DNA of 10,800 nt. Source: an uncultured Collinsella sp. (lineage in GTDB: Bacteria > Actinomycetota > Coriobacteriia > Coriobacteriales > Coriobacteriaceae). The stretch lies in NCBI GenBank assembly GCA_902491135.1, contig CABUGR010000016.1:1-10800 (forward strand), written 5' to 3'. Made by a program: the position numbers and the translations under genes. The notes under the pieces are model-generated. The model had not been told where the DNA came from. It saw only the letters and a program-made list of their open reading frames with translations, and did no database searches. Below are positions 304 to 10,610 of the stretch, piece after piece. How positions within the stretch are numbered: the stretch's first letter is position 1; each line of letters begins with the position of its first letter.

Positions 304-326
304 GGACAGGTTTATTTTGGCAGGTT
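289..326. repeat. Dispersed hairpin repeat, copy A; candidate bidirectional terminator
   Basis: The arms AACCTACCA (290-298) and TGGCAGGTT (318-326) pair except for one A/C position, around a core GGGACAG (303-309). The reverse complement of 291-326 matches 7628-7663 at 31 of 36 positions, so this is one copy of a family; copies also lie at 9764-9799 and, with different arms, at 6413-6443. It spans the TAG of the acetyltransferase and overlaps the TAA (325-327, minus strand) of the GntR gene. A role in ending transcription from both sides is inferred from that position. Confidence 0.6.
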
Positions 327-1047
327 AGCCGATGGGCTCGGTGTATTTGGCACGGTCGGTGCGCTGGATGCGCTTGGAGACATGGAGCGGTCGGCCGTCG
401 GTGTCGTACACGTAGTCGGTGATCAGGATCAGCGCCTGCCCGCGCCCAACGTTGAGCAAAAACGCCTCGTTTTGCGAGGCATAGCACACCTCAAAGGTCT
501 TATGTCCCTGTGCCGGCGCGCGATGGAATTCCTGGCGCAGCGTGGCGTAGAGCGAACCGTTGATATCGCGATCGATGAGTGCTTCAAAGCTCGGTGGTAG
601 ATAGGTGGTCTCCAGGCACAGCGGCGCATCGTCCAGATAACGCAGGCGGACAAGTTTGACGAGCTTGCTGCCCACGGCGACATCGAAGAACTTGGCCGCA
701 TTGCCCGCGGCCTTGGCAAAGCCCGAGTCCACCGTGCGCGTGGTGGGCTTCATACCCTGACCCTGGACCTGTGTCGTGTAGCTCGAAAACACCAGGTTGT
801 TCTCGTGGAGTGCCGGCGTGTCGGCCACAAAGGCGCCACGCCCGCGCTCGGTGCGCACCAGGCCCTCGTCAACGAGCACCTTAAGGGCGTGGCGTACGGT
901 GCTGCGCGACAGCCCCGATTCGTCCATGAGTTCCATCTCGGACGGCAGCTTGTCTCCGCGCGCGTAGGTGCCGGAGGCGATGCGGTCGCGCAGCATGCCC
1001 GCCAAGCGCTCGTATTGGGTCAGTCTCTTTTTAGATGAAGCGTTCAT
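325..1047 (-). CDS. GntR-family transcriptional regulator (HutC/UTRA type), regulator 1
   Basis: A 240-residue protein, the usual length for this subfamily. An N-terminal winged helix-turn-helix covers roughly residues 10-75: YERLAGMLRDRI, LPSEMELMDESGLSRSTVRHAL as the recognition helix region, and the wing ERGRGAFV. A UTRA effector-binding domain covers roughly 90-235 and ends in YVYDTDGRPLHVSKRIQRTD. HutC-type regulators bind sugar phosphates, amino acids or related metabolites and usually repress a nearby catabolic gene. The gene is divergent from the SIS deglycase at 1253, with about 205 bases between starts that hold duplicated operator-like motifs, so control of itself and of that deglycase is likely. 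The ATG at 1045-1047 has only a weak upstream AGG on the minus strand. The ligand is unknown; an Amadori-product 6-phosphate is a reasonable guess. Confidence 0.9.
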   Translation of the reverse strand: MNASSKKRLTQYERLAGMLRDRIASGTYARGDKLPSEMELMDESGLSRSTVRHALKVLVDEGLVRTERGRGAFVADTPALHENNLVFSSYTTQVQGQGMKPTTRTVDSGFAKAAGNAAKFFDVAVGSKLVKLVRLRYLDDAPLCLETTYLPPSFEALIDRDINGSLYATLRQEFHRAPAQGHKTFEVCYASQNEAFLLNVGRGQALILITDYVYDTDGRPLHVSKRIQRTDRAKYTEPIG

Positions 1048-1057
1048 GCGATCAACC

Positions 1058-1103
1058 TGTATCTAACCTGTATGCGTATCTAATCAAGCATGTATTCAAT
1101 ACA
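1058..1103. promoter_or_regulatory. Candidate GntR regulator 1 operator cluster, GntR-proximal
   Basis: TGTATCTAACCTGTATGC (1058-1075) recurs with two changes at 1197-1214. Within the cluster the octamer GTATCTAA occurs at 1059 and again at 1076. TGTATT-C-AATACA (1091-1103) is a perfect 6-bp inverted repeat around one base. These sit just upstream of the regulator's own ATG (minus strand), fitting autoregulation. GntR-family operators are typically short palindromes with GT...AC ends; assignment to this regulator is an inference from position. Confidence 0.5.
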
Positions 1104-1167: not shown

Positions 1168-1214
1168 GCATACAACTAGTCGACATAACCAAAACATGTA
1201 TGTAACTTGTATGC
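1168..1214. promoter_or_regulatory. Candidate GntR regulator 1 operator, deglycase-proximal
   Basis: TGTATGTAACTTGTATGC (1197-1214) matches 16 of 18 bases of the GntR-proximal copy at 1058-1075. GCATACAA (1168-1175) is the exact reverse complement of TTGTATGC (1207-1214), so the site also offers a wider inverted repeat. It ends 38 bases before the ATG of the SIS gene, where a bound repressor could block transcription. I could not place a convincing -35/-10 pair. Confidence 0.5.
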
Positions 1215-1252: not shown

Positions 1253-2236
1253 ATGACTACTCAGGAACAGGTTAAGGACGTCGTCTCCCAGGTTTTGGCC
1301 GACAAGGCAGACAAGGGCGGCATCAAGCGCGTCGTGTGGATTGGCGCCGGCGGATCCAACGGCGGCAACTATCCTGCCCAGTACTTTATGGAGCACGAGG
1401 CCACGCAGGTCGTGAGCTCCAGCTACACCAGCAATGAGTTCGTGCACGCCACGCCCGCCTATGTCAACGAGAACACCCTGGCCGTCGTCGTGTCCATGCG
1501 CGGCACCAAGGAGACCATCGTCGCCGCCCAGGTCGCCAAGGACCACGGCGCCAGCACCATCGCCATCTATGTCGATGAGTCCGGCCTCACCGAGGTCTGC
1601 GACTACAAGATTCAGTATGACAGCCTGGCCGTCGACGAGTCTTGCATGGGCCGTACCAACTCCGCCGTCGTGACCATGATCGCCATGGAGCTTACGCAGC
1701 AGACCGAGGGCTATGCCGAGTATGAGACCGCTATGGCCGCCTTCGACCTGGTTGACCCCATCTATCGCAAGGCCGTCGAGTACACCCGTCCGCTCGCCGC
1801 CAAGTGGGCCGAGCAAAACGCCGACAAGCCCTGCATCAACGTGATGGCTCAGGGTCCGCTCTTTGGTGCCGCCTACGTCTTCAACGTGCAGGAGATGCTG
1901 CAGATCGACTCCTGCACCATCAACACCTGCGACTTCTTCCACGGCCCCTTCGAGATCCTGGACAAGCGCACCTCGCTGTTCCAGCTCATCAGCGTCGGCC
2001 GCAGCCGCTGCAACGACGAGCGCGGCATCCGCTTCGTCAACCAGTACGGTGGCGAGCGCGTCTATCAGCTCGACGCCAAGGAGCTCGGCCTCAACGACAT
2101 CAAGGACAGCGTGAGCGAGTACTTCAATCACCTGATCTTTGCCCCGATCCTCAACAACGTGTACATGCGTGCGCTCTCTGCCGTCACCCACAAGGACTAC
2201 ATGACGCGCCGCTACATGTGGAAGCTGGACTACTAG
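1253..2236 (+). CDS. SIS-domain sugar-phosphate deglycase, paralogue 1 (GfrE/FrlB family)
   Basis: A 327-residue protein with two SIS sugar-isomerase domains (about 20-150 and 180-310). GAGGSNGGNYPAQYF near residue 31 and SMRGTKETI near 81 are the sugar-phosphate binding loops of the first domain. It aligns along its length with the deglycase at 6534-7517 and shares the family ending RRYMWKLDY. Known FrlB/FraB deglycases use a Glu and a His 16 residues apart; here these are E214 and H230 (in DFFHGPFEI). The family splits 6-phosphorylated Amadori compounds into a hexose 6-phosphate and an amine or amino acid. Position 227 is Asp where the second copy and B. subtilis FrlB have Glu, so it is the more divergent paralogue. 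A glucoselysine-6-phosphate (GfrE-like) substrate is possible but unproven. GAAAGG (1237-1242) lies 10 bases before the ATG. The gene stands alone and divergent from regulator 1. Confidence 0.85.
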   Translation: MTTQEQVKDVVSQVLADKADKGGIKRVVWIGAGGSNGGNYPAQYFMEHEATQVVSSSYTSNEFVHATPAYVNENTLAVVVSMRGTKETIVAAQVAKDHGASTIAIYVDESGLTEVCDYKIQYDSLAVDESCMGRTNSAVVTMIAMELTQQTEGYAEYETAMAAFDLVDPIYRKAVEYTRPLAAKWAEQNADKPCINVMAQGPLFGAAYVFNVQEMLQIDSCTINTCDFFHGPFEILDKRTSLFQLISVGRSRCNDERGIRFVNQYGGERVYQLDAKELGLNDIKDSVSEYFNHLIFAPILNNVYMRALSAVTHKDYMTRRYMWKLDY

Positions 2237-2272
2237 GGGATAGAGCGGCCTAACAGCTCGATGTCCTCATAA

Positions 2273-2337
2273 GTTGCGGTGGAATAGTTCCTGCTTGGGG
2301 GCTTGAAGCCTCTATTTAGGAACTATTTCACCGCAAC
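2273..2337. repeat. 65-nt long-stem hairpin downstream of the first deglycase
   Basis: The arms at 2273-2292 and 2318-2337 are complementary at 19 of 20 positions. The 25-base loop contains its own small stem (GGCT-TGA-AGCC). There is no T run after it, so it is not a textbook intrinsic terminator, although it lies 36 bases after the deglycase stop. The long near-perfect arms suggest a palindromic intergenic repeat or a processed RNA structure. A partial echo of the arm, TTGCGGTGGA, is visible near 8346-8355. Confidence 0.6.
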
Positions 2338-2399
2338 CGCCCAGTAATCCGCTGGGGGCGGAGGAAAACGGATCACTTATCCGCTCGCCGATTTGTGTC

Positions 2400-2462
2400 T
2401 TGAAAAATGTATATAACGACTATAACGTAGTACGAAACATATTGGAAACAATATCGAGGAGG
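2400..2462 (+). promoter_or_regulatory. Promoter/operator and leader of the EamA gene
   Basis: The motif TATAACG occurs twice with a 9-bp period (2412-2418 and 2421-2427). On the minus strand this reads ACGTTATAG TCGTTATAT, the tandem arrangement also seen upstream of the PTS operon and regulator 2. TTGAAA (2400-2405) and TATAAC (2421-2426) could be -35/-10 boxes with a short 15-base spacer. Downstream, ATATTG-GAAA-CAATAT (2439-2454) is a perfect 6-bp hairpin with a GNRA-type loop ending just before the ribosome binding site GAGGAGG (2456-2462). Confidence 0.5.
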
Positions 2463-2467
2463 CTGCG

Positions 2468-3550
2468 TTGAAGAAAAGCAATCTGGGCTATGTGCTGGTG
2501 CTGATCGCCGCGCTTATGTGGGGCAGCATCGGAATCTTTGTAAACGGCATCTCGGCCATGGGCGTTTCGTCCCAGAGCATGGCTGCCTTTCGCTTGTTGG
2601 TCGGAGCGCTTATCTTGGCGCCGGTCCTGATGTTTATGGGCTGCCGTCCGGGTGAGGGGTCTACCGTGGCTCAGGGTCCGCTGGCCCTGTTCAAGGCAAG
2701 CCCTAAAGAGCTTGTTCCCTGTGCGCTTGTCGGCATCGTCGGTTTGGCCGCCGCCAACACCTGTTATTACGAGTGCATGGGCGAGGTGGGCATGTCCACG
2801 GCCTCGGTGCTGCTCTACACCTCGCCGGTGTTTGGCGTCATGCTCGGCCGCGTGCTTTATCGCGAGGACGTGACCCCCAACAAGCTCGTTGCCATTGTCT
2901 TTAACATCGTAGGCTGCGTGCTTGCAGTGACCAATGGCGACCTTTCCGGTTTTCATTTTTCGGTTTGGGGCGTCACGTCGGGCGTGATTGCAGGCCTTTG
3001 TGGTGCGTCGCTCGCGGTGTTTAGCCGAATAGCAACCAAGACGGTCCACCCGCTGGCTGTCACGTTTTGGGGCTTTGTTTTTGGCGGTGCGGTTATGGCA
3101 GCTATCGCGGCTCCGTGGCCGGATGTCGCCGCGGCAATGTCGCCAGAGCTGCTGCTGCTGTTCCTTGGCTTTGGACTCATCCCCACAGCCGTTGCTTACA
3201 TCTTATATATGCAGGGTCTGTCCATGGGGCTCGAGACATCGAAAGTTCCCGTCGTAATGTCTTTCGAGACGGTCGTCACCGTACTGGTGGGCATTGGTGT
3301 CTACGCCGAGCCCGCCGGCGCGATTAAAGTCCTGGGCATCGTGTTGGTGCTCGCGTCCATCCTGATTATGAACACCGACTTCTCCAAGCTGCGCAACAGT
3401 GTGTTTGTCGGTCATGTCATTGAGAGCATGACCTTTAAGCCCAACGCGTGGTGGACCGAAAAATCTCAGGACATGGATCTGTTTAAGGAACGCACCGGCA
3501 TTGCGCTGGAACCCACCGTACAGGAAAGCCCCTGGTACTTCGTGCGATAG
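2468..3550 (+). CDS. EamA-family (drug/metabolite superfamily) transporter with TTG start
   Basis: A 360-residue inner-membrane protein with about ten predicted helices in two EamA repeats. The repeat signatures are LLYTSPVFGVMLGRVLYRE (about 115-133) and MSFETVVTVLVGIGVYAEP (about 264-282), each followed by a hydrophobic helix. DMT exporters move amino acids, nucleosides or small metabolites; the substrate cannot be read from sequence. The TTG start is chosen because GAGGAGG lies 5 bases upstream and the first helix follows directly (MKKSNLGYVLVLIAALMWGS). After the last helix there is a soluble tail of about 55 residues (305-360, including NAWWTEKSQDMDLF) that most EamA proteins lack. It sits between the first deglycase and the PTS operon and shares the ACGTTATA upstream motif with the latter. 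Export of lysine or another amine released by the deglycases is therefore a plausible, untested role. Confidence 0.88.
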   Translation: MKKSNLGYVLVLIAALMWGSIGIFVNGISAMGVSSQSMAAFRLLVGALILAPVLMFMGCRPGEGSTVAQGPLALFKASPKELVPCALVGIVGLAAANTCYYECMGEVGMSTASVLLYTSPVFGVMLGRVLYREDVTPNKLVAIVFNIVGCVLAVTNGDLSGFHFSVWGVTSGVIAGLCGASLAVFSRIATKTVHPLAVTFWGFVFGGAVMAAIAAPWPDVAAAMSPELLLLFLGFGLIPTAVAYILYMQGLSMGLETSKVPVVMSFETVVTVLVGIGVYAEPAGAIKVLGIVLVLASILIMNTDFSKLRNSVFVGHVIESMTFKPNAWWTEKSQDMDLFKERTGIALEPTVQESPWYFVR

Positions 3551-3634
3551 GGGATTGCGCGCAGGGTCTGACCTGGGGTTATCCAGCTAGCGCCGGCCTA
3601 CCCAGTCCAACGTTTCGAGTACGTTAAACCCGTC

Positions 3635-3728
3635 AACGGTCGATTTTCACCCGCGAACGGTCTTTATACTAATTAGCAATATAAGCAACGTATAAGACGT
3701 TATAATGACCATAACGAAAAGGAGGAGG
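3635..3728 (+). promoter_or_regulatory. Promoter/operator region of the mannose-family PTS operon
   Basis: ACGTATAAG ACGTTATAA (3688-3705) is a tandem motif with 9-bp period. The second unit also forms CGTTAT-N7-ATAACG (3698-3716), an inverted repeat. TATAAT (3701-3706) is a perfect -10 box inside the motif, so a bound regulator would block it; a matching -35 is not obvious. Upstream, AACGGTC occurs at 3635-3641 and 3656-3662, 21 bp apart (two helical turns), and TATACT (3665-3670) could be a second -10. The ribosome binding site AAGGAGGAGG is at 3719-3728. Confidence 0.5.
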
Positions 3729-3732
3729 CAAG

Positions 3733-4656
3733 ATGAATCAGATCATTCTCGCATCTCATGGCGGCCTAGCCGCAGGCGCCAAAGACACGCTCGAGATGGT
3801 TCTCGGCGACGTGTCGAACGTCCACGTCGTGTCGCTTGCTCGTGACGACAAGGAGCCCATCACCAATAAGGTGGACGCCATGATCGCCACGTTCAACGCG
3901 GACGACACCGTCTATGTGCTGACCGATATGCTCGGCAGCTCGGTCAACAACAGCATGGTCGAGCTTTCCAAGAACGGCACGAAGTTCACGGTTGTCAGCG
4001 GTTTCAACATCCCGCTGGCGCTCACGCTCGCTATGAGCCCCGTCCCCGTCAAGGGCGCCGAGCTCGCGGCCCTCATCAACGAGGCCCGCACCGGTCTGAC
4101 CAACCCCAACGCACCGGTCGAGGCCGCCGCGGCTCCCGCCAAGAAGGCTAAGGCGCCCCGTCACAGCTCCGGTCCCGCCAAGATCGTCCTCGCACGTCTT
4201 GACTACCGTCTGCTGCACGGCCAGGTCGTCTTTACCTGGACCACCAAGGTTCAGGCCGAGCGCATCATCGTCGTCGACAACGCCGCCGCCAACGATGACA
4301 TCAAGAAGGGCGCTCTTAAGCTGGCCAAGCCCCAGGGCGTGCGCCTGAACGTCTTCACCGTCGAGCGTGCCCTCGCCAAGATGGACAAGCTCAACACCCT
4401 CGGCGAGCGCGTCATGTTCGTCTTTGGCAACACGGCCGAGATGCTGCAGTTCTGCCAGGGCTACAAGCTCGACGCCATCAACCTGGGCGCCACCGCCAAC
4501 CACGACGGTGCCGATCAGGTCGGCGGCAAGGACAGCTCCGTCTTCCTCGACGCCGCCCAGAAGGCCGACGTCAACCAGCTGCTCGACATGGGCATCAAGC
4601 TCTATGTCCAGCAGACCCCTACGTATCAGAGCGTCGACATCGACGCCAAGCTGTAA
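3733..4656 (+). CDS. Mannose-family PTS EIIAB component (fused)
   Basis: A 307-residue cytoplasmic phosphocarrier. The EIIA domain (about 1-122) begins with IILASHGGLAAG, where H9 is the expected HPr-phosphorylated histidine, and contains the conserved VLTDMLGSSVNN. An Ala/Pro/Lys-rich linker (about 127-148) leads to an EIIB domain (about 149-307) with ARLDYRLLHGQV, matching the RxDxRLxHGQV signature in which H162 carries the phosphate. Phosphate passes HPr to H9 to H162 to the sugar entering through EIICD. The fusion resembles ManX/ManL rather than the split EIIA and EIIB of the Salmonella gfr system. The start is set by GGAGG seven bases upstream. It opens the operon: EIIC follows after 36 bases. 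The substrate is inferred from the downstream FrlB-like enzyme; mannose or another hexose cannot be excluded from this protein alone. Confidence 0.93.
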   Translation: MNQIILASHGGLAAGAKDTLEMVLGDVSNVHVVSLARDDKEPITNKVDAMIATFNADDTVYVLTDMLGSSVNNSMVELSKNGTKFTVVSGFNIPLALTLAMSPVPVKGAELAALINEARTGLTNPNAPVEAAAAPAKKAKAPRHSSGPAKIVLARLDYRLLHGQVVFTWTTKVQAERIIVVDNAAANDDIKKGALKLAKPQGVRLNVFTVERALAKMDKLNTLGERVMFVFGNTAEMLQFCQGYKLDAINLGATANHDGADQVGGKDSSVFLDAAQKADVNQLLDMGIKLYVQQTPTYQSVDIDAKL

Positions 4657-4692
4657 TCAACCAGGCTTTTGCCTGACTGAAAGGAGAAGGGT

Positions 4693-5487
4693 ATGAATAC
4701 GTTCATCAGTGCGGTGCTCGTCGGCCTCGTCGGCGTGTTCTGCATGTGGGACTCCCGCCTGCTCGGTCGTCTTAACTTCGAGCAGCCCCTCGTTGGCGCT
4801 ACGCTCGTCGGTCTGCTGCTGGGCGATGTGCCCACCGGCCTTGCCGTCGGTGCCGCCGTCGAGCTCGTGTCCATGGGCCTGGTGCAGGTCGGTGCCGCCG
4901 TTCCGCCCGATATGGTCCTGGGCGGCATCGTGGCCGCTGCCTTCGCGTGCCTGACCGATGCTTCCGCCGAGACCGCCATGACGATCGCCATCCCGGTCGC
5001 CGTCCTGGGTCAGCTCCTCGGCATCGTGTTCCGCTCCATCATCGCCGCCCTCACCCATGTGGCAGATAGCGCGATCGATAACGGAAAGTTCAAGACCGCC
5101 TATCGTATGCACATCTGCGCCGGCTCCGGTCTGTACGCCATCATGTACTTCCTGCCGATCTTCCTCGCCGTCTTTGTTGGCACCGACCTGGTTCAGGCCA
5201 TCGTCAACATGGTTCCCGAGTGGCTGTCCACTGGTCTTAACGTTTCGACCAAGATCATGACCGCCTACGGCTTGGCCCTGCTGCTCACCATGATGATCAA
5301 GAAGGGTATGACTCCGTTCCTGTTCATCGGTTTCCTGCTCGCCGCTTACCTCAACCTGTCCGTCATCGCGGTCGCTCTGATCGGTGTGTGCCTGGCTGTC
5401 GTCTTCATGGGCTTCAAGTTCAACGGGTCCCATGCAGCCGCCGGTGTCGATTCCGACTACGATCCGCTCGAAGACGACGAAGACTAA
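4693..5487 (+). CDS. Mannose-family PTS EIIC membrane component
   Basis: A 264-residue polytopic protein of the EIIC Man/Sor family. The family signature GATLVGLLLGDVPTGLAVGAAVELVSMG (about 35-62) and the following VQVGAAVPPD are clear, and several long hydrophobic segments follow. With EIID it forms the sugar channel that delivers the substrate for phosphorylation by EIIB. AAGGAG (4681-4686) sits six bases before the ATG. The last 14 or so residues are strongly acidic (DSDYDPLEDDED), a cytoplasmic tail I do not recall as standard for the family. The EIID gene begins 13 bases after the stop and its ribosome binding site touches the stop codon, so the two are probably translationally coupled. 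Confidence 0.93.
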   Translation: MNTFISAVLVGLVGVFCMWDSRLLGRLNFEQPLVGATLVGLLLGDVPTGLAVGAAVELVSMGLVQVGAAVPPDMVLGGIVAAAFACLTDASAETAMTIAIPVAVLGQLLGIVFRSIIAALTHVADSAIDNGKFKTAYRMHICAGSGLYAIMYFLPIFLAVFVGTDLVQAIVNMVPEWLSTGLNVSTKIMTAYGLALLLTMMIKKGMTPFLFIGFLLAAYLNLSVIAVALIGVCLAVVFMGFKFNGSHAAAGVDSDYDPLEDDED

Positions 5488-5500
5488 GGAGGAACACACT

Positions 5501-6334
5501 ATGGCAACCGCAACCAAGGACGTGTCCCTGAACAAGAAGGTCAGCCAGTTCTTCTGGCGCTCCTGGGCCATCCAGGCCTCTTGGAACTACGAGCGTCAGA
5601 TGAACATGGGCTTCCTCTACGGCATGGTTCCCACGCTCGACCGCCTCTATCCGGACGAGTCCGACCCCAAGCAGCTCGCTGCTAAGAAAGAGGCTTACCA
5701 CCGTCACATGGCGTTCTACAACTGCACCCCGCAGACGAGCGCCTTTATCCTGGGCCTCACCGCCTCCATGGAGGAGGAGTACGCCAAGGATCCCGAGAAC
5801 TTCAACCCCGATTCGATTAACGCGGTCAAGACCTCCCTTATGGGCCCGCTTTCCGGCATCGGTGACTCCTTCTTCCAGGGCACCATCCGTGTTATCGCCT
5901 TTGGTCTGGGCGTTCAGCTGGCTCAGCAGGGCTCCATCATGGGCCCGATCCTGGCCATGCTCATCTCCATCGTCCCCTCTGTGCTGATCACTTGGTTCGC
6001 AGCCAAGATGGGCTATCAGGGCGGCCACGAGTACCTGAGCAAGCTTCAGGGCGGCGACCTCATGGAGAAGCTCATGTATGTCTGCGGCATCGTGGGTCTT
6101 ATGTCCGTAGGCGGCATGATCGCCACGCTGATCGGCGCCACCACCCCGCTGCAGTTCGCTGAGGGCACCGTCGTTATCCAGGACATCCTGGACGGCATGA
6201 TGCCCCAGATGATCTCCCTTGGCCTCACCGGCCTTATGTACTGGCTCATCAAGAAGAACGTCAACACCGGTTGGCTTCTCGTGATCGCCATCGTGGGCGG
6301 CATCGCCCTCTCCGCGGCCGGCATCCTGGCCTAG
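5501..6334 (+). CDS. Mannose-family PTS EIID membrane component
   Basis: A 277-residue EIID protein. RSWAIQASWNYERQMNMGFLYGMVPTLDRLYPD (20-52) and LMGPLSGIGDSFFQGTIRVI (113-132) are the family hallmarks; hydrophobic segments near 148-165, 194-213 and 256-276 anchor it. The ATG at 5501 is chosen over an in-frame upstream ATG at 5384 because AAGGAGGA (5486-5493) precedes it and the earlier start would overlap most of the EIIC C-terminus. EIID binds EIIC and is needed for transport and, in studied systems, substrate recognition. It is followed by a 199-base gap with a GC-rich stem and a repeat hairpin before the second deglycase gene, so expression of that gene may be tuned separately while remaining in the same direction. 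Confidence 0.93.
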   Translation: MATATKDVSLNKKVSQFFWRSWAIQASWNYERQMNMGFLYGMVPTLDRLYPDESDPKQLAAKKEAYHRHMAFYNCTPQTSAFILGLTASMEEEYAKDPENFNPDSINAVKTSLMGPLSGIGDSFFQGTIRVIAFGLGVQLAQQGSIMGPILAMLISIVPSVLITWFAAKMGYQGGHEYLSKLQGGDLMEKLMYVCGIVGLMSVGGMIATLIGATTPLQFAEGTVVIQDILDGMMPQMISLGLTGLMYWLIKKNVNTGWLLVIAIVGGIALSAAGILA

Positions 6335-6368
6335 TCGCGACCAAGCGTCTAACCGCTTTCCCCCGGGG

Positions 6369-6399
6369 GCCTGCCTGGCATCCCATACCCCAGGCAGGC
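6369..6399 (+). terminator. GC-rich stem-loop between EIID and the second deglycase
   Basis: GCCTGCCTGG (6369-6378) pairs perfectly with CCAGGCAGGC (6390-6399) around an 11-base loop. Only a short mixed TTCC tract follows, so it is a weak or partial terminator at best. It may reduce read-through or protect the 3' end of the PTS mRNA. Confidence 0.4.
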
Positions 6400-6412
6400 T
6401 TCCATCCCCAAA

Positions 6413-6443
6413 ATGCGACAATGGGACAGTCCCTTTGTCGCAT
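6413..6443. repeat. REP-like hairpin with GGGACAG core (variant D)
   Basis: ATGCGACAA (6413-6421) pairs perfectly with TTGTCGCAT (6435-6443). Inside, GGGA/TCCC adds four more pairs around a CAG loop. The GGGACAG core and overall architecture match the other hairpins at 289-326, 7628-7663 (inverted) and 9764-9799 (inverted), but the outer arms differ. It lies in the leader between EIID and the deglycase gene. Confidence 0.6.
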
Positions 6444-6533
6444 CCTCAACGGGCCGGCGACTCGGTCCAAATCACGGTAACCCTGCGAGCGCCCGGCAAT
6501 GTGGCGCCGCAAAAATCGAAAGGAATGTGTCAG

Positions 6534-7517
6534 ATGTACGAGATCGACCTTAACCTCCCTAAGCAGATCGTCGCTGACGTCCTGTCCAACCACGAGATCC
6601 ACAGTGTCGCCTTCGTCGGCTGCGGTGCTTCCATGTCCGACCTGTACCCCGCCAAGTACTTCCTGGCCAACAACACGGACAAGCTGAACGTTCAGATCTT
6701 CACCGCTAACGAGTTCAACTATGACACGCCTTCCTGGGTCAACGAGCACACCTTCGTGATCACCTGCTCCCTCGGTGGCTCCACGCCCGAGACCGTCGAG
6801 GCCAACAAGACCGCCAAGAAGCACAACTGCCCGGTCGTCTCCCTCACCAACAAGGCTGGCTCCGCTCTGACCGTCGACGCCGACTACGTCATCGTTCACG
6901 GCTTCCACGCCAACTTCGCTGCCAAGTGCGAGAAGCCCGGCTATGCCATCGCTCTTGCTCTCGAGATCCTTCAGCAGACCGAGGGCTATGACAAGTACGA
7001 CGACATGATCACCGGCCTCACCAACGTCTTCGATCTCTGCGAGAACGCTGCTCAGTCCTGCAAGAAGCTAGCCAAGAAGTTCGCTGAGGACTTCAAGGAC
7101 GACAAGATGATTTACTTCATGGCCTCTGGTGCCTCCGAGAAGATGGCTTACTCTCACGCCGCCTTCCTGTTCACCGAGATGCAGTGGATCGACGCCGCCG
7201 CCTACAACACCGGCGAGTACTTCCACGGCCCGTTCGAGGTTTCCACCGAGGGTAAGCCCTACGTCTTCTTCATGTCCGATGGCGCTACCCGTCCGATGGA
7301 CGCCCGCGCCCTCACCTTCCTTGAGCGCATGGGCGCCAAGGTCGCTCTGATCGACTCCAAGGACTACGGCCTGGCTGACGCCGTGCCCGCGAGCGTCGTC
7401 ACCTACTTCAACCCGCTGCTGCACCTCGCCGTTATGCGCGAGTACGGCAACCAGATCGCCGAGGCCCGTCAGCACCCGCTGACCATGCGTCGCTACATGT
7501 GGAAGCTTTCCTACTAA
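6534..7517 (+). CDS. frlB: FrlB-like SIS-domain fructoselysine-6-phosphate deglycase
   Basis: A 327-residue double-SIS protein, the same length as the paralogue at 1253-2236. It closely resembles B. subtilis FrlB as I recall it: FVGCGASMSDLYPAKYF (27-43), SLGGSTPETVEA (79-90), FTEMQWIDAAAYNTGEYFHGPFEV (213-236) and the ending RRYMWKLSY. The catalytic pair with 16-residue spacing is E215 and H231. The expected reaction is hydrolysis of fructoselysine 6-phosphate to glucose 6-phosphate and lysine in the cytoplasm. The ATG at 6534 is preferred because AAAGGA (6519-6524) lies 9 bases upstream; the in-frame ATG at 6525 would leave almost no spacing. It is the last gene of the PTS operon and is followed by a strong terminator. 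A related Amadori or Heyns substrate remains possible. Confidence 0.87.
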   Translation: MYEIDLNLPKQIVADVLSNHEIHSVAFVGCGASMSDLYPAKYFLANNTDKLNVQIFTANEFNYDTPSWVNEHTFVITCSLGGSTPETVEANKTAKKHNCPVVSLTNKAGSALTVDADYVIVHGFHANFAAKCEKPGYAIALALEILQQTEGYDKYDDMITGLTNVFDLCENAAQSCKKLAKKFAEDFKDDKMIYFMASGASEKMAYSHAAFLFTEMQWIDAAAYNTGEYFHGPFEVSTEGKPYVFFMSDGATRPMDARALTFLERMGAKVALIDSKDYGLADAVPASVVTYFNPLLHLAVMREYGNQIAEARQHPLTMRRYMWKLSY

Positions 7518-7536: not shown

Positions 7537-7551
7537 ACGGGTTGATTGAGA

Positions 7552-7583
7552 GGGGATGGGGTTTGCGCCCCGTCCCCTTTTTT
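7552..7583 (+). terminator. Rho-independent terminator of the PTS-deglycase operon
   Basis: GGGGATGGGG (7552-7561) pairs with CCCCGTCCCC (7568-7577), with one G-T wobble and a six-base loop, followed by six T residues (7578-7583). It lies 34 bases after the deglycase stop and separates the operon from the HAD gene. Confidence 0.9.
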
Positions 7584-7627
7584 GCTCTTGGGAGGGCACG
7601 CCTGTCGCGTCGCAAAACCCAGGATAA

Positions 7628-7663
7628 AACCTACCAAAATAAACCTGTCTCTATTTGGCAGGT
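7628..7663. repeat. Dispersed hairpin repeat, copy B, in the HAD leader
   Basis: The arms AACCTACCAAA and TTTGGCAGGT pair except for one A/C position, around CCTGTC. It matches copy A (reverse complement) at 31 of 36 positions and copy C (9764-9799) at 29 of 36. Its 3' arm ends directly at the ribosome binding site GGAGG (7665-7669) of the HAD gene, so folding in the transcript could affect translation of that gene. Confidence 0.65.
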
Positions 7664-7677
7664 GGGAGGAGATGCGT

Positions 7678-8307
7678 ATGATCAAAGCAGTGCTGTTTGA
7701 CATGGACGGCGTGCTGGTCGATACCGAGTGGTTCTACAACCGTCGTCGCGTGGCGTTTATGGAGGAGAAGGGGTTCCACTTTGACGAGATCCCCGATCTT
7801 TCGGGGTCTAACGAGCCGGCCATTTGGGAGGCGCTGGTGCCCGACGATGTTGAGCTGCGCGAGCGCCTTCGCGTGGAGTACAAGCAGGTCTACAGCCCGG
7901 ACCACCCCGTTCCGTATGCCGAGCTGCTCAACGAGCAGACGGAGCCGGTGATGCGCGCACTGCACGAGCGCGGCGTGAAGTGTGCCATCGCGAGCTCGTC
8001 TTATCGTGAGCTCATTGACGAGCTGGTAGAGATTGCCGGTATCGCCGATGTGCTGGACTACACCATCAGCGGTCACGAGTGCAGTGCGTTTAAGCCCGAC
8101 CCCGAGATCTACCTGCGTGCCATGGAGGCGCTGGGGGTGGAGCCTGCCGAGTGCCTGGTTATCGAGGATTCGCCTTTGGGGATCGAGGCTGGCAAACGTT
8201 CCGGCGCCCGCGTCCTGGCACTGCGTCCGCACGAGGGCGTCAACCTCGATCAATCGCGAGCCGATGCCGTTATTGATAATCTGACCGACATTTTGGCCGC
8301 TTTGTAG
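7678..8307 (+). CDS. HAD-superfamily subclass IA hydrolase (phosphatase or phosphomutase)
   Basis: A 209-residue protein. Motif I is VLFDMDGVLVDTE (5-17) with nucleophile D8 and acid/base D10. Motif II is CAIASSSYRELI with S106, motif III is K139 in AFKPDPEIYLRAMEALG, and motif IV is VIEDSPLGIEAG with E163/D164. The helical cap between motifs I and II (about 15-90) is subclass IA, as in beta-phosphoglucomutase and sugar or deoxysugar phosphatases. The ATG at 7678 is chosen over the in-frame ATG at 7672 because GGAGG (7665-7669) then has an 8-base spacing. It lies after the operon terminator, so it is probably a separate transcription unit. A link to the sugar-phosphate products of the neighbouring deglycases is possible, but HAD specificity cannot be read from motifs. 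Confidence 0.88.
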   Translation: MIKAVLFDMDGVLVDTEWFYNRRRVAFMEEKGFHFDEIPDLSGSNEPAIWEALVPDDVELRERLRVEYKQVYSPDHPVPYAELLNEQTEPVMRALHERGVKCAIASSSYRELIDELVEIAGIADVLDYTISGHECSAFKPDPEIYLRAMEALGVEPAECLVIEDSPLGIEAGKRSGARVLALRPHEGVNLDQSRADAVIDNLTDILAAL

Positions 8308-8662: not shown

Positions 8663-9670
8663 GTGGCGAACGCCATCGATCAGCTCACGGACCGCGTGCT
8701 CGTGCTCGGCCGCCTTACCATCGTCCGTCGCGCCATCACTGCCGTGGCGGTCACCATATCTGCCATTCTTCAAACGTTTCTGATCCAGGCGTTCATTCAG
8801 CCCGCCGACCTGCTTCCGAGCGGTCTCACCGGTGTCGCGGTCCTGCTTGATCGCGTTACCTCGCTCGGCGGCGTTCACATCGACATCTCGCTCGGTATGC
8901 TCGCGCTCAACATCCCCGTGGCGCTCCTATGCTGGAGCGGCATTAGCAAGCGCTTCGTCATCTTCTCGATGATGCAGGTCGTGCTCTCGTCGCTGTTCCT
9001 CAACATCTTTCACTTTGCCCCGTTTTTGGGCGACAAGATCATGCTCATCATTTTTGGCGGCGTGGTCTCGGGTCTGGGCGCTGCCATCGCGCTTAAGTCC
9101 GGCGCATCCACCGGCGGTACCGACTTTATCGCGCTGTGGGTCTCCAACCACACGGGCAAGACCATCTGGGGCGTCATCTTTGGTTTCAACTGCTTTATCC
9201 TGGCGATCTTTGGTTTTATGTTTGGCTGGGACAAGGCGGCGTATTCCATCGTGTTTCAGTTTATTTCGACCAAGACCATCGACAGTTTCTATCGTCGTTA
9301 CGATCGCGTGACGCTGCAGATCACGACGCGCAAGGCGGACGAGGTCATGACCGCCTATGTTGACCATTTTCAGCATGGCATTAGCTGTGCCGAGGTCATT
9401 GGCGGATACAGCCGCGAGAAGATGTACCTGCTGCACGCCGTTGTATCGACCTACGAGAGCCAGGACATTATCAAGCTGGTGTGCGACATCGATCCCGGCG
9501 CCGTGATCAACGTGTTCCACACGCTCAACTTTGTGGGCGGCTGGTGGGGCGGTCATGTCGACGAGCCCATGCCCACGGCCGTACCCGATCCCGACAAGCC
9601 CGCACGCATGGCCAGCAGGCAGGCGCGTCTCAGCGAGCAGGACAGCCTGCAGCAGGACGACGGCAAGTAG
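8663..9670 (+). CDS. YitT-family membrane protein (DUF161/DUF2179)
   Basis: A 335-residue protein. About five or six hydrophobic segments cover residues 23-205, including the family signature KSGASTGGTDFIA (145-157). A soluble C-terminal DUF2179 domain (about 215-292) begins VTLQITTRKADEVMTAYVDHFQHGISCAEVIGGYS and contains VINVFHTLNFVGG. A charged, Gln/Asp-rich tail of about 35 residues follows. YitT proteins are widespread in Gram-positive bacteria and their function is not settled; a transport role is often suggested. The GTG start is supported by AAGGAG (8652-8657) five bases upstream. It has its own promoter and a strong downstream stem-loop, so a functional link to the deglycase locus is not indicated. 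Confidence 0.9.
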   Translation: MANAIDQLTDRVLVLGRLTIVRRAITAVAVTISAILQTFLIQAFIQPADLLPSGLTGVAVLLDRVTSLGGVHIDISLGMLALNIPVALLCWSGISKRFVIFSMMQVVLSSLFLNIFHFAPFLGDKIMLIIFGGVVSGLGAAIALKSGASTGGTDFIALWVSNHTGKTIWGVIFGFNCFILAIFGFMFGWDKAAYSIVFQFISTKTIDSFYRRYDRVTLQITTRKADEVMTAYVDHFQHGISCAEVIGGYSREKMYLLHAVVSTYESQDIIKLVCDIDPGAVINVFHTLNFVGGWWGGHVDEPMPTAVPDPDKPARMASRQARLSEQDSLQQDDGK

Positions 9671-9747: not shown

Positions 9748-9763
9748 TCGTTTGCCCAGATAA

Positions 9764-9799
9764 AACCTACCAAAAAGAAGCTGTCGCTTTTTGGTAGGG
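9764..9799. repeat. Dispersed hairpin repeat, copy C
   Basis: CCTACCAAAAAG (9766-9777) pairs perfectly over 12 bp with CTTTTTGGTAGG (9787-9798) around a loop containing CTGTC. It matches copy B (7628-7663) at 29 of 36 positions and lies in the same orientation, between the YitT terminator and the regulator 2 promoter. Confidence 0.65.
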
Positions 9800-9840
9800 A
9801 GGGTGTATCGTTTTATCAATATGAGGTAACATGAAACTAG

Positions 9841-9857
9841 ACGTTATATACGTATTA
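9841..9857. promoter_or_regulatory. Candidate autoregulatory operator of GntR regulator 2
   Basis: ACGTTATAT ACGTATTA is a tandem motif with 9-bp period, sharing the exact octamer ACGTTATA with the PTS promoter (3697-3704) and, on the minus strand, with the EamA promoter (2421-2428). It ends 33 bases before the ATG of the second GntR gene. Autoregulation by GntR proteins is common, which is the basis of the assignment. Confidence 0.5.
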
Positions 9858-9890: not shown

Positions 9891-10610
9891 ATGCCTGCGC
9901 CCAAAAATGCACCGCTTTACCAGCAGATTTACGACGAAATCAAGGATGCGATCGAGAAAGGTGTTTATGCACCCAAGGAGCGTATTCCGTCCGAGCTTGA
10001 GCTAGCCGAGCAGTACGACGTGAGCCGCATTACGGTGCGCCGCGCCGTCGAGGAGCTGTGTTCCGATGGCTACCTGGTTAAGCAGCAGGGCCGTGGCACC
10101 TTTGTTTCCACGCCGCACATCAACCGCCAGTTCCACGCCTCGACGCTGCAGACGTTTACCGCGCTGTGTGCCGACAACGGCATGAAGGCGGGCGCACATG
10201 TGGTCGATCGCCAGATTGTGCCGGCACGTCAAAACGAGATGGAGTTCTTTGGCCTGCAAAAGGACGCGCTGCTGCTGCATATTAAGCGCGTGCGTACAGC
10301 CGACGGCGAGCCCATCTTTGAGGAGAACATCTTTGTGCCGTTTGACGCCTACCGTGAGCTGTTGACGGCCGATCTTGAGGACAAGTCGATTTTTGCCGAG
10401 GTCGAGCGTGTTGGCGGAACGCCGATTGTCTCGGTTGGCTACCGCACGGTCGAGGCCGTTCGTGCCAATACCGAGCAGGCGGCCGAGTTGGGTATTGCTC
10501 CGCACGATCCCCTGCTCAACCTGCGTGCCAGCTTTACCGGTCCCAATGGCGAGCCGGTCCTGATGGGTAAGCAGTACTACGTGGGATCGCGCTACGTTAT
10601 GGTCATGTAA
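9891..10610 (+). CDS. GntR-family transcriptional regulator (HutC/UTRA type), regulator 2
   Basis: A 239-residue protein. The winged helix-turn-helix is at about 9-73: LYQQIYDEIKDAIEKG, IPSELELAEQYDVSRITVRRAVEEL and the wing QQGRGTFV. A UTRA ligand-binding domain covers about 80-235, with RVRTADGEPIFEENIFVP and the terminal PVLMGKQYYVGSRYVMVM. It is clearly a different protein from regulator 1, related only at family level. The shared ACGTTATA motif makes it the best candidate to control the EamA gene, the PTS operon and itself, although it is encoded over 2 kb downstream of the operon. The UTRA ligand would plausibly be a phosphorylated Amadori compound. The ribosome binding site before the ATG is weak (AAGAG at 9877-9881), fitting low expression. 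Confidence 0.92.
   Translation: MPAPKNAPLYQQIYDEIKDAIEKGVYAPKERIPSELELAEQYDVSRITVRRAVEELCSDGYLVKQQGRGTFVSTPHINRQFHASTLQTFTALCADNGMKAGAHVVDRQIVPARQNEMEFFGLQKDALLLHIKRVRTADGEPIFEENIFVPFDAYRELLTADLEDKSIFAEVERVGGTPIVSVGYRTVEAVRANTEQAAELGIAPHDPLLNLRASFTGPNGEPVLMGKQYYVGSRYVMVM

Follow-up and report, generated by a model that had tools for sequence, protein, structure and literature searches.

The stretch of DNA analysed here, 10,800 nucleotides from an uncultured Collinsella sp. (contig CABUGR010000016.1 of assembly GCA_902491135.1) and hereafter called the window, carries a gene cluster built around a mannose-family phosphotransferase system (PTS) and two SIS-family proteins of the deglycase type, SIS1 and SIS2. 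We propose, with a probability of about 0.7, that this is a locus for the PTS-coupled deglycation of Amadori products, which would be Gfr-like in its working without being an orthologue of Gfr. The DNA resembles that of Collinsella aerofaciens, and its best match among the 80 loci fetched with SIS2 is C. aerofaciens L004 (97.9% over 10.7 kb; L and G numbers denote loci and genomes, respectively). Its ten genes are all open frames with families assigned by Pfam and NCBIfam (Table 1). The genes that a first-pass annotation of this DNA had placed here are all present, open and supported by family, and the fusion of EIIA and EIIB that it had described is borne out by matches to EIIA-man and PTSIIB_sorb within one frame.

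A proposed PTS-fed route for glycated amines

A Pfam/NCBIfam scan found no PfkB-type kinase in the window. Since a mannose-family PTS stands beside two deglycase-type SIS proteins and the locus lacks a kinase of its own, import and phosphorylation of a glycated amine through the PTS, as had been proposed in the first-pass annotation, appears to be the best reading of the gene content. Judging by their motifs, EIIA and EIIB both retain the histidine that accepts the phosphoryl group, at residues 9 and 162, respectively. In the proposed route, EIIAB-EIIC-EIID would import an Amadori-type sugar-amine conjugate and phosphorylate it, presumably at C6, after which SIS2 would cleave the phosphorylated conjugate into hexose 6-phosphate and the free amine. 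SIS1, judging from its phylogenetic branch and its catalytic residues, would likewise cleave a second, FraB-like class of conjugates. The EamA transporter would probably export the freed amine, and the HAD phosphatase would probably clear stalled phosphates; it has been reported that the phosphorylated intermediate is toxic to fraB mutants (PMC4941530, PMC12755824). To go by their predicted boxes, GntR2 would control EamA, the PTS-SIS2 genes and perhaps itself, and GntR1 would control SIS1 separately in most of the Coriobacteriaceae loci seen.

Co-occurrence across Coriobacteriia

The distribution of the genes was followed in 148 Coriobacteriia genomes, with E-value thresholds of 1e-90 for EIID, 1e-80 for SIS2 and 1e-60 for SIS1. 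EIID and SIS2 were each detected in 28 of the 148 genomes, and these are the identical 28. SIS1 was found in 24 of them and in none of the other 120, lying in all 24 on the same contig as EIID and no more than 3.5 kb from it. Because the three genes co-occur in this way, the gene set is not a chance assembly. As for the four PTS genomes without a SIS1 match, in G103, which corresponds to L011 by coordinates, the contig starts at the place expected for SIS1, and in G135 (L024 by coordinates) SIS1 is only partly matched. In G136, which is the Thermophilibacter locus L029 by coordinates, EIIA and EIIB are split and SIS1 was not found; the spacing in G148 is the same as in G136. The HAD gene adjoins this PTS in most Coriobacteriia loci and also in Bacillota, with no match in L021 and L034.

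The two SIS branches

The position of the two SIS proteins was addressed with a careful tree of 73 rows, in which GfrE served as root, and a quick tree of 78 rows that agrees with it on the placement of SIS1, SIS2, GfrE and GfrF; both flag E. coli FrlB, 3eua, 3fkj and GfrE as long branches. In the 73-row tree, SIS1 forms a single branch (100/100) that is sister to, and stands beside rather than within, a branch made up of FraB and 3fkj (98/96). SIS2 forms another branch (95/84), and GfrE and GfrF fall outside both. SIS1 and SIS2 are 39-40% identical to the protein of L084 annotated as FraB, and E. coli FrlB is 23-24% identical to the SIS proteins of the window. Glu214 and His230 of SIS1, as well as Glu215 and His231 of SIS2, align with Glu214 and His230 of FraB, the presumed general acid/base residues, and GfrE, GfrF and E. 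coli FrlB have this Glu and His too. The aligned catalytic Glu is the residue altered in 9otu, a deposited variant of a FraB-like structure.

Two structures in the trees deserve mention. Entry 3eua of the PDB is, we assume, B. subtilis FrlB, and entry 3fkj is presumably Salmonella STM0572. The latter sits beside FraB (98/80). The Salmonella STM0577-72 genes have been described as a 'Putative PTS' with unknown inducer (PMC4987338), and they may represent another PTS-fed FraB-like system. B. subtilis FrlB has been reported to prefer alpha-glycated amino acids (PMC12632257); the idea that SIS2 shares this preference was rejected, as 3eua lies outside the SIS2 branch (81/92, long branch).

It has also been stated that FraB takes an alpha-linked and FrlB an epsilon-linked conjugate; PMC9609667 quotes unpublished data in which each enzyme proved specific. 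Since SIS1 adjoins FraB in the tree, an alpha-linked conjugate is the leading guess for its substrate.

Relatives of the PTS outside Coriobacteriia

Outside Coriobacteriia, the most similar systems belong to Bacillota and are split-PTS operons consisting of EIIA, EIIB, EIIC, EIID, a SIS2-type gene and HAD. EIIC and EIID are 54% and 67% identical to those of an uncharacterised second PTS operon of E. faecium (L083), which holds PTS, SIS2 and HAD genes without a SIS1 partner. The closest relatives found, namely L081, L082 and L083 together with L038 and L050, include two plasmids typed as conjugative, one from Pediococcus pentosaceus (L081) and one from Enterococcus gilvus (L082), on which SIS1 is present with a divergent GntR upstream, as in the window; these regulators are just 29-35% identical to GntR1. 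L081 to L083 thus share with the window EIIA, EIIB, EIIC, EIID, the SIS2-type deglycase and HAD, as well as, in L081 and L082, SIS1 with its divergent GntR. Unlike the window, they have separate EIIA and EIIB genes and an additional LevR-type activator, and no EamA gene is annotated in them.

Since PTS and SIS2, and also the set with SIS1, occur outside Coriobacteriia, the gene combination is not an actinobacterial invention. This corrects the first-pass description of an actinobacterial version, since the combination is present in Bacillota with split EIIA and EIIB. In the loci seen, the EIIA-EIIB fusion and the EamA gene are Coriobacterial additions.

The Pediococcus SIS1 nests within the Coriobacteriia SIS1 proteins with mixed support (95/57 and 88/94), a placement hinting at transfer between phyla. 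Other associations were also observed in Bacillota. In the Lachnospiraceae loci L058 and L066, where this PTS is missing, SIS1-type and SIS2-type genes lie at most 5 kb apart; SIS2-type and FraB-type enzymes occur together in six further Bacillota loci (L046-L048, L051-L053). In the Bacillota locus L050, the split-PTS set is on one strand and a SIS2-type gene on the other, with kinase-like and ABC-like frames recognised nearby by eye, so that the two routes of import may be neighbours there. A seven-gene fructoselysine PTS operon of Faecalibacterium prausnitzii has been described, with a PTS, a single deglycase mapped to gfrF and one further gene (PMC12136445). Going by this description, its seven genes would be consistent with the arrangement GntR-EIIA-B-C-D-SIS2-HAD seen in L038 and L050; in contrast to the window, no second deglycase is described.

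Regulators and candidate operators

The divergent regulators found in L018 and L036 share 57-58% identity with GntR1, and GntR2 is 51-52% identical to the GntR protein beside the split PTS in L038 and L050. GntR1, the private regulator of SIS1, was seen in Coriobacteriaceae loci only, and not in every one of them (L035 is without it).

The box TATAAYGACYATRAYG is common to the EamA and EIIAB promoters. Its pattern, which was written after seeing promoters including these two sites, is matched twice in the window, where 0.01 matches would be expected. Genome G004, of 2.2 Mb, contains three exact matches of this type. Two belong to this locus; the third, on contig C11, lies within a long open frame and is probably due to chance. 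When two mismatches were allowed in G004, 14 matches were obtained as against 7 for the reversed control. The weaker box before GntR2 (9839..9851) is not matched by the TATAAYGACYATRAYG pattern. A matrix was then derived from 11 different sites, all of them upstream of EIIAB or EamA and each matching a seed at no fewer than 13 of 20 positions, and applied to SIS1 promoters. Where GntR1 is lacking, the SIS1 promoter scores between 14 and 25 in 10 of 11 loci, a score that none of 200 letter shuffles of each promoter reached, and 6 in the eleventh (L021). In the 22 loci with GntR1, the SIS1 promoter scores at most 7.5 and the box is found in none. Neither set consists of independent loci, since near-identical C. 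aerofaciens dominate the 22, which amount to about five lineages, and a single site recurs in four of the 11.

A second box, TATCTAACTTGTAT, was read off the GntR1 loci. It is matched at 12 or more of 14 positions in 21 of the 22 GntR1 loci, a count that is partly circular, and in none of the 11 others. Two copies of a longer TATCTAACTTGTAT form lie between GntR1 and SIS1 in the window; at a tolerance of three mismatches, two matches were likewise obtained in 2 of 200 shuffles. The two regulators thus seem to use separate operators, and the arrangement looks like an operator swap in which EamA keeps the shared box and SIS1 has a private one. That one deglycase is under its own regulator, as previously suggested, is supported by the differing boxes at SIS1 and at EamA and the PTS.

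In C. aerofaciens L001 (16324-18192), about 2-4 kb past the point corresponding to the end of the window, a third SIS gene is found with its own GntR. This GntR is 47% identical to GntR2, and the third SIS protein groups with SIS enzymes from kinase-type loci.

A deletion in the SIS1 gene of the window

SIS1 has 327 residues in the window and 330 in other Collinsella copies, owing to an in-frame deletion of 9 bp at about 1881-1882, next to the catalytic Glu. The deleted residues or their equivalents are kept in all 36 SIS1 loci compared, and the region is intact in all 118 readable relatives among the 120 listed of 777 found. The catalytic Glu and His themselves survive. In the AlphaFold2 model of the L004 relative, Glu is held by one helix (201-219), which in the model of the window protein is split into 203-209 and 212-216; the mean confidence of the residue blocks in 201-230 falls from 92-96 to 80-85. 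The SIS1 of the window strain is likely to be impaired, with loss of activity, although the deletion may also be a sequence error.

Weighing the alternatives

The locus most readily compared is Gfr itself, which comprises the mannose-family PTS GfrABCD, the deglycases GfrE and GfrF and the LevR-like activator GfrR (PMC12675984, PMC4987338). The gfrABCDEF loci of Salmonella and Enterococcus share with the window a mannose-family PTS beside its deglycases, with EIIA and EIIB fused in the window, two SIS proteins and the lack of a local kinase. It could be argued from this parts list that the locus is a rearranged true Gfr operon, with SIS1 and SIS2 as its GfrE and GfrF and with glucoselysine and fructoselysine as substrates. 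The reference for the comparison was a pair of Enterococcus operons (L093, L096) with the order LevR-EIIA-EIIB-EIIC-EIID-SIS-SIS, called gfr by their layout; Salmonella gfr was not part of it. Against these candidates SIS1 and SIS2 reach 19-27% identity overall, as compared with 39-40% to FraB, and the alignments with GfrE are short or barely significant: SIS1 is 24% identical to E. faecium GfrE over just 87 residues (E 0.02) and 21% to GfrF, the values for SIS2 being 19% and 23%. By identity and by both trees, neither a GfrE orthologue, that is, a glucoselysine 6-phosphate deglycase, nor a GfrF orthologue is present in the window. EIIC and EIID are 36% and 45% identical to gfrC and gfrD, well below their identity to the second E. 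faecium PTS operon. There is no LevR-like sigma-54 activator of the GfrR type among the genes found in the window, where GntR regulators take its place. Compared with the Enterococcus records, the window further differs in the separate box of one deglycase and in its EamA and HAD genes. The identification of SIS1 and SIS2 with GfrE and GfrF is therefore rejected for low identity and separate branches, and membership in Gfr, tested through this orthology, is not supported. As the orthology failed, the glucoselysine and fructoselysine substrates that the first-pass annotation had derived from Gfr are unsupported, and a rearranged Gfr operon is very improbable. The locus lacks two of the features that define Gfr; as far as its anatomy tells, it appears to work like Gfr, yet it is not its orthologue.

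Mannose-family PTS often take hexoses and amino sugars, so a plain-sugar system must also be considered, in which the SIS proteins would serve as aminosugar-phosphate deaminases or isomerases in the handling of glucosamine, galactosamine or mannose. SIS1 and SIS2 do match GlmS and NagB-II models, all far under the curated cut-offs, and both match FraB better; in addition, the SIS2-type gene of L088 is annotated next to an amino acid ABC importer and a PfkB kinase. We regard a plain-sugar PTS as unlikely. A much stronger contender, to which we grant somewhat less than even odds, is that the PTS route is the published epsilon-fructoselysine locus of Collinsella, with SIS2 as fructoselysine 6-phosphate deglycase and a substrate that is not new; it overlaps with PTS-coupled deglycation and differs from it in substrate and novelty only. 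A study by Wolf and colleagues from 2019 is reported to describe fructoselysine loci in C. intestinalis and C. aerofaciens, of which this locus may be one. As fructoselysine use by Collinsella has thus reportedly been published, the locus would be no more than a variant of something already known. Collinsella intestinalis is said to increase with fructoselysine or processed whey (PMC8195334, naming Wolf et al. 2019) and to degrade dietary glycation products (PMC10255453), and Collinsella has been linked to processed food (PMC7875684, naming Wolf et al. 2019). A literature search in one collection, judged by titles and the start of abstracts, showed no paper on this Collinsella locus among those listed.

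What speaks against the epsilon-fructoselysine locus is a separate locus with FrlB-, FrlC- and FrlD-like genes in the same genomes. Matches to E. coli FrlD outside the PTS locus were detected in 8 of 8 Collinsella genomes (best per genome, 31-36%). A FraD query matched 28 of the 148 genomes, 24 of which are among the 28 PTS genomes, four of these 24 matches being weak (30-34%). L097 contains a GntR, a DcuC-family transporter, an amidohydrolase, an FrlC-like TIM-barrel protein, a SIS enzyme and a kinase; L099 has the same set by open frames, and L098 gave FrlB-, FrlC-, FrlD-like and GntR matches, the kinases of the three being 39-43% identical to FraD. The earlier statement that there is no kinase thus holds within the window and not genome-wide, a kinase lying elsewhere in 8/8 Collinsella and 24/28 PTS genomes. 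That the PTS and kinase routes usually coexist argues for different substrates, without proving so. As for the known kinase systems, frl of E. coli and B. subtilis likewise relies on deglycation of a fructosamine 6-phosphate by a SIS enzyme and differs in its kinase route and in the position of 3eua. In Salmonella fra, FraB is the 6-phosphofructose-aspartate deglycase to whose branch SIS1 is sister; in place of a PTS, the annotation of fra shows an anaerobic C4-dicarboxylate transporter together with a kinase.

Several observations weigh against PTS-coupled deglycation as drawn here. The characterised enzymes in the trees all fall beyond the SIS1 and SIS2 branches, and the kinase in 24 of 28 PTS genomes means that the published fructoselysine route could be the kinase one and this locus something else. 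The similarity of EamA to the DMT gene of a Klebsiella deglycation locus is weak (28% over 87 residues), and a terminator-like hairpin separates SIS2 and HAD. The operators are predicted from sequence, and several loci lacking GntR1 have no clear box before EIIAB, which would fit a single transcript beginning ahead of SIS1.

Features of the window

Table 1. Predicted features of the 10,800-nucleotide window
Feature	Position	Strand	Evidence
GntR1, GntR/UTRA regulator, divergent from SIS1	325..1047	-	Open frame, Pfam/NCBIfam
Putative GntR1 operator, copy 1	1058..1074	+	Pattern written from both copies; box type kept in GntR1 loci
Putative GntR1 operator, copy 2	1197..1213	+	Pattern written from both copies
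SIS1, SIS deglycase, sister of FraB branch, with three-residue loss	1253..2236	+	Profile match, trees, alignment, models
Putative GntR2 operator before EamA	2412..2427	+	Pattern match
EamA/DMT-family transporter	2468..3550	+	Pfam/NCBIfam
Putative GntR2 operator before PTS	3701..3716	+	Pattern match
Mannose-family PTS EIIA-EIIB fusion (EIIA-man + PTSIIB_sorb)	3733..4656	+	Pfam/NCBIfam
PTS EIIC	4693..5487	+	Pfam/NCBIfam
PTS EIID	5501..6334	+	Pfam/NCBIfam
SIS2, PTS-linked SIS deglycase	6534..7517	+	Profile match, tree, alignment
Terminator-like hairpin after SIS2, 15 pairs, T tail	7548..7581	+	Hairpin scan
HAD phosphatase	~7678..8307	+	Pfam/NCBIfam (search query started at 7681)
YitT	8663..9670	+	Pfam/NCBIfam
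Weaker GntR2-type box before GntR2	9839..9851	-	13-mer, one mismatch to EamA box
GntR2, GntR/UTRA regulator	9891..10610	+	Pfam/NCBIfam

Positions 1-303 are the end of an acetyltransferase-like frame. The terminator scan gave 8 hairpins overall against a shuffle mean of 8.6, that is, no excess, and an Rfam scan of the window found nothing. Between EIID and SIS2, a near-perfect palindrome occupies 6413-6443, with a second hairpin just ahead of 6413. The word ATAAAACCTACCAAAA is common to 7622-7640 and 9758-9776, where it starts a pair of inverted-repeat elements that resemble each other and are probably copies of a repeat dispersed between genes. YitT-family genes, here at 8663-9670 and also in L038, L066, L073-L075, L077 and L078, recur near glycated-amine loci of several groups in varying order.

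Implications

A broader picture can be drawn, which we offer tentatively and consider doubtful as a whole. The locus would represent a distinct type of PTS-fed deglycation system that was put together separately from Gfr and has moved between Coriobacteriia and Lactobacillales on conjugative plasmids. SIS1 would open the alpha-linked class of substrates (e.g., fructose-asparagine, as opposed to fructoselysine or glucoselysine), and in most Coriobacteriaceae loci it would have been cut from the shared GntR2 regulon and handed to a private regulator, giving one importer with two separately switched substrates.

Sugar-coated amino acids of this sort form when food is heated. Collinsella, a common gut bacterium, has been tied to processed food in human studies, and fructoselysine is usually named to account for its use of Maillard products. 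Should the locus supply another class of glycated amino acids, this capacity would be partly mis-assigned wherever such a PTS is called 'gfr'. Moreover, the apparent operator swap would be a natural experiment, in which a bacterium separates the two substrates of one importer.

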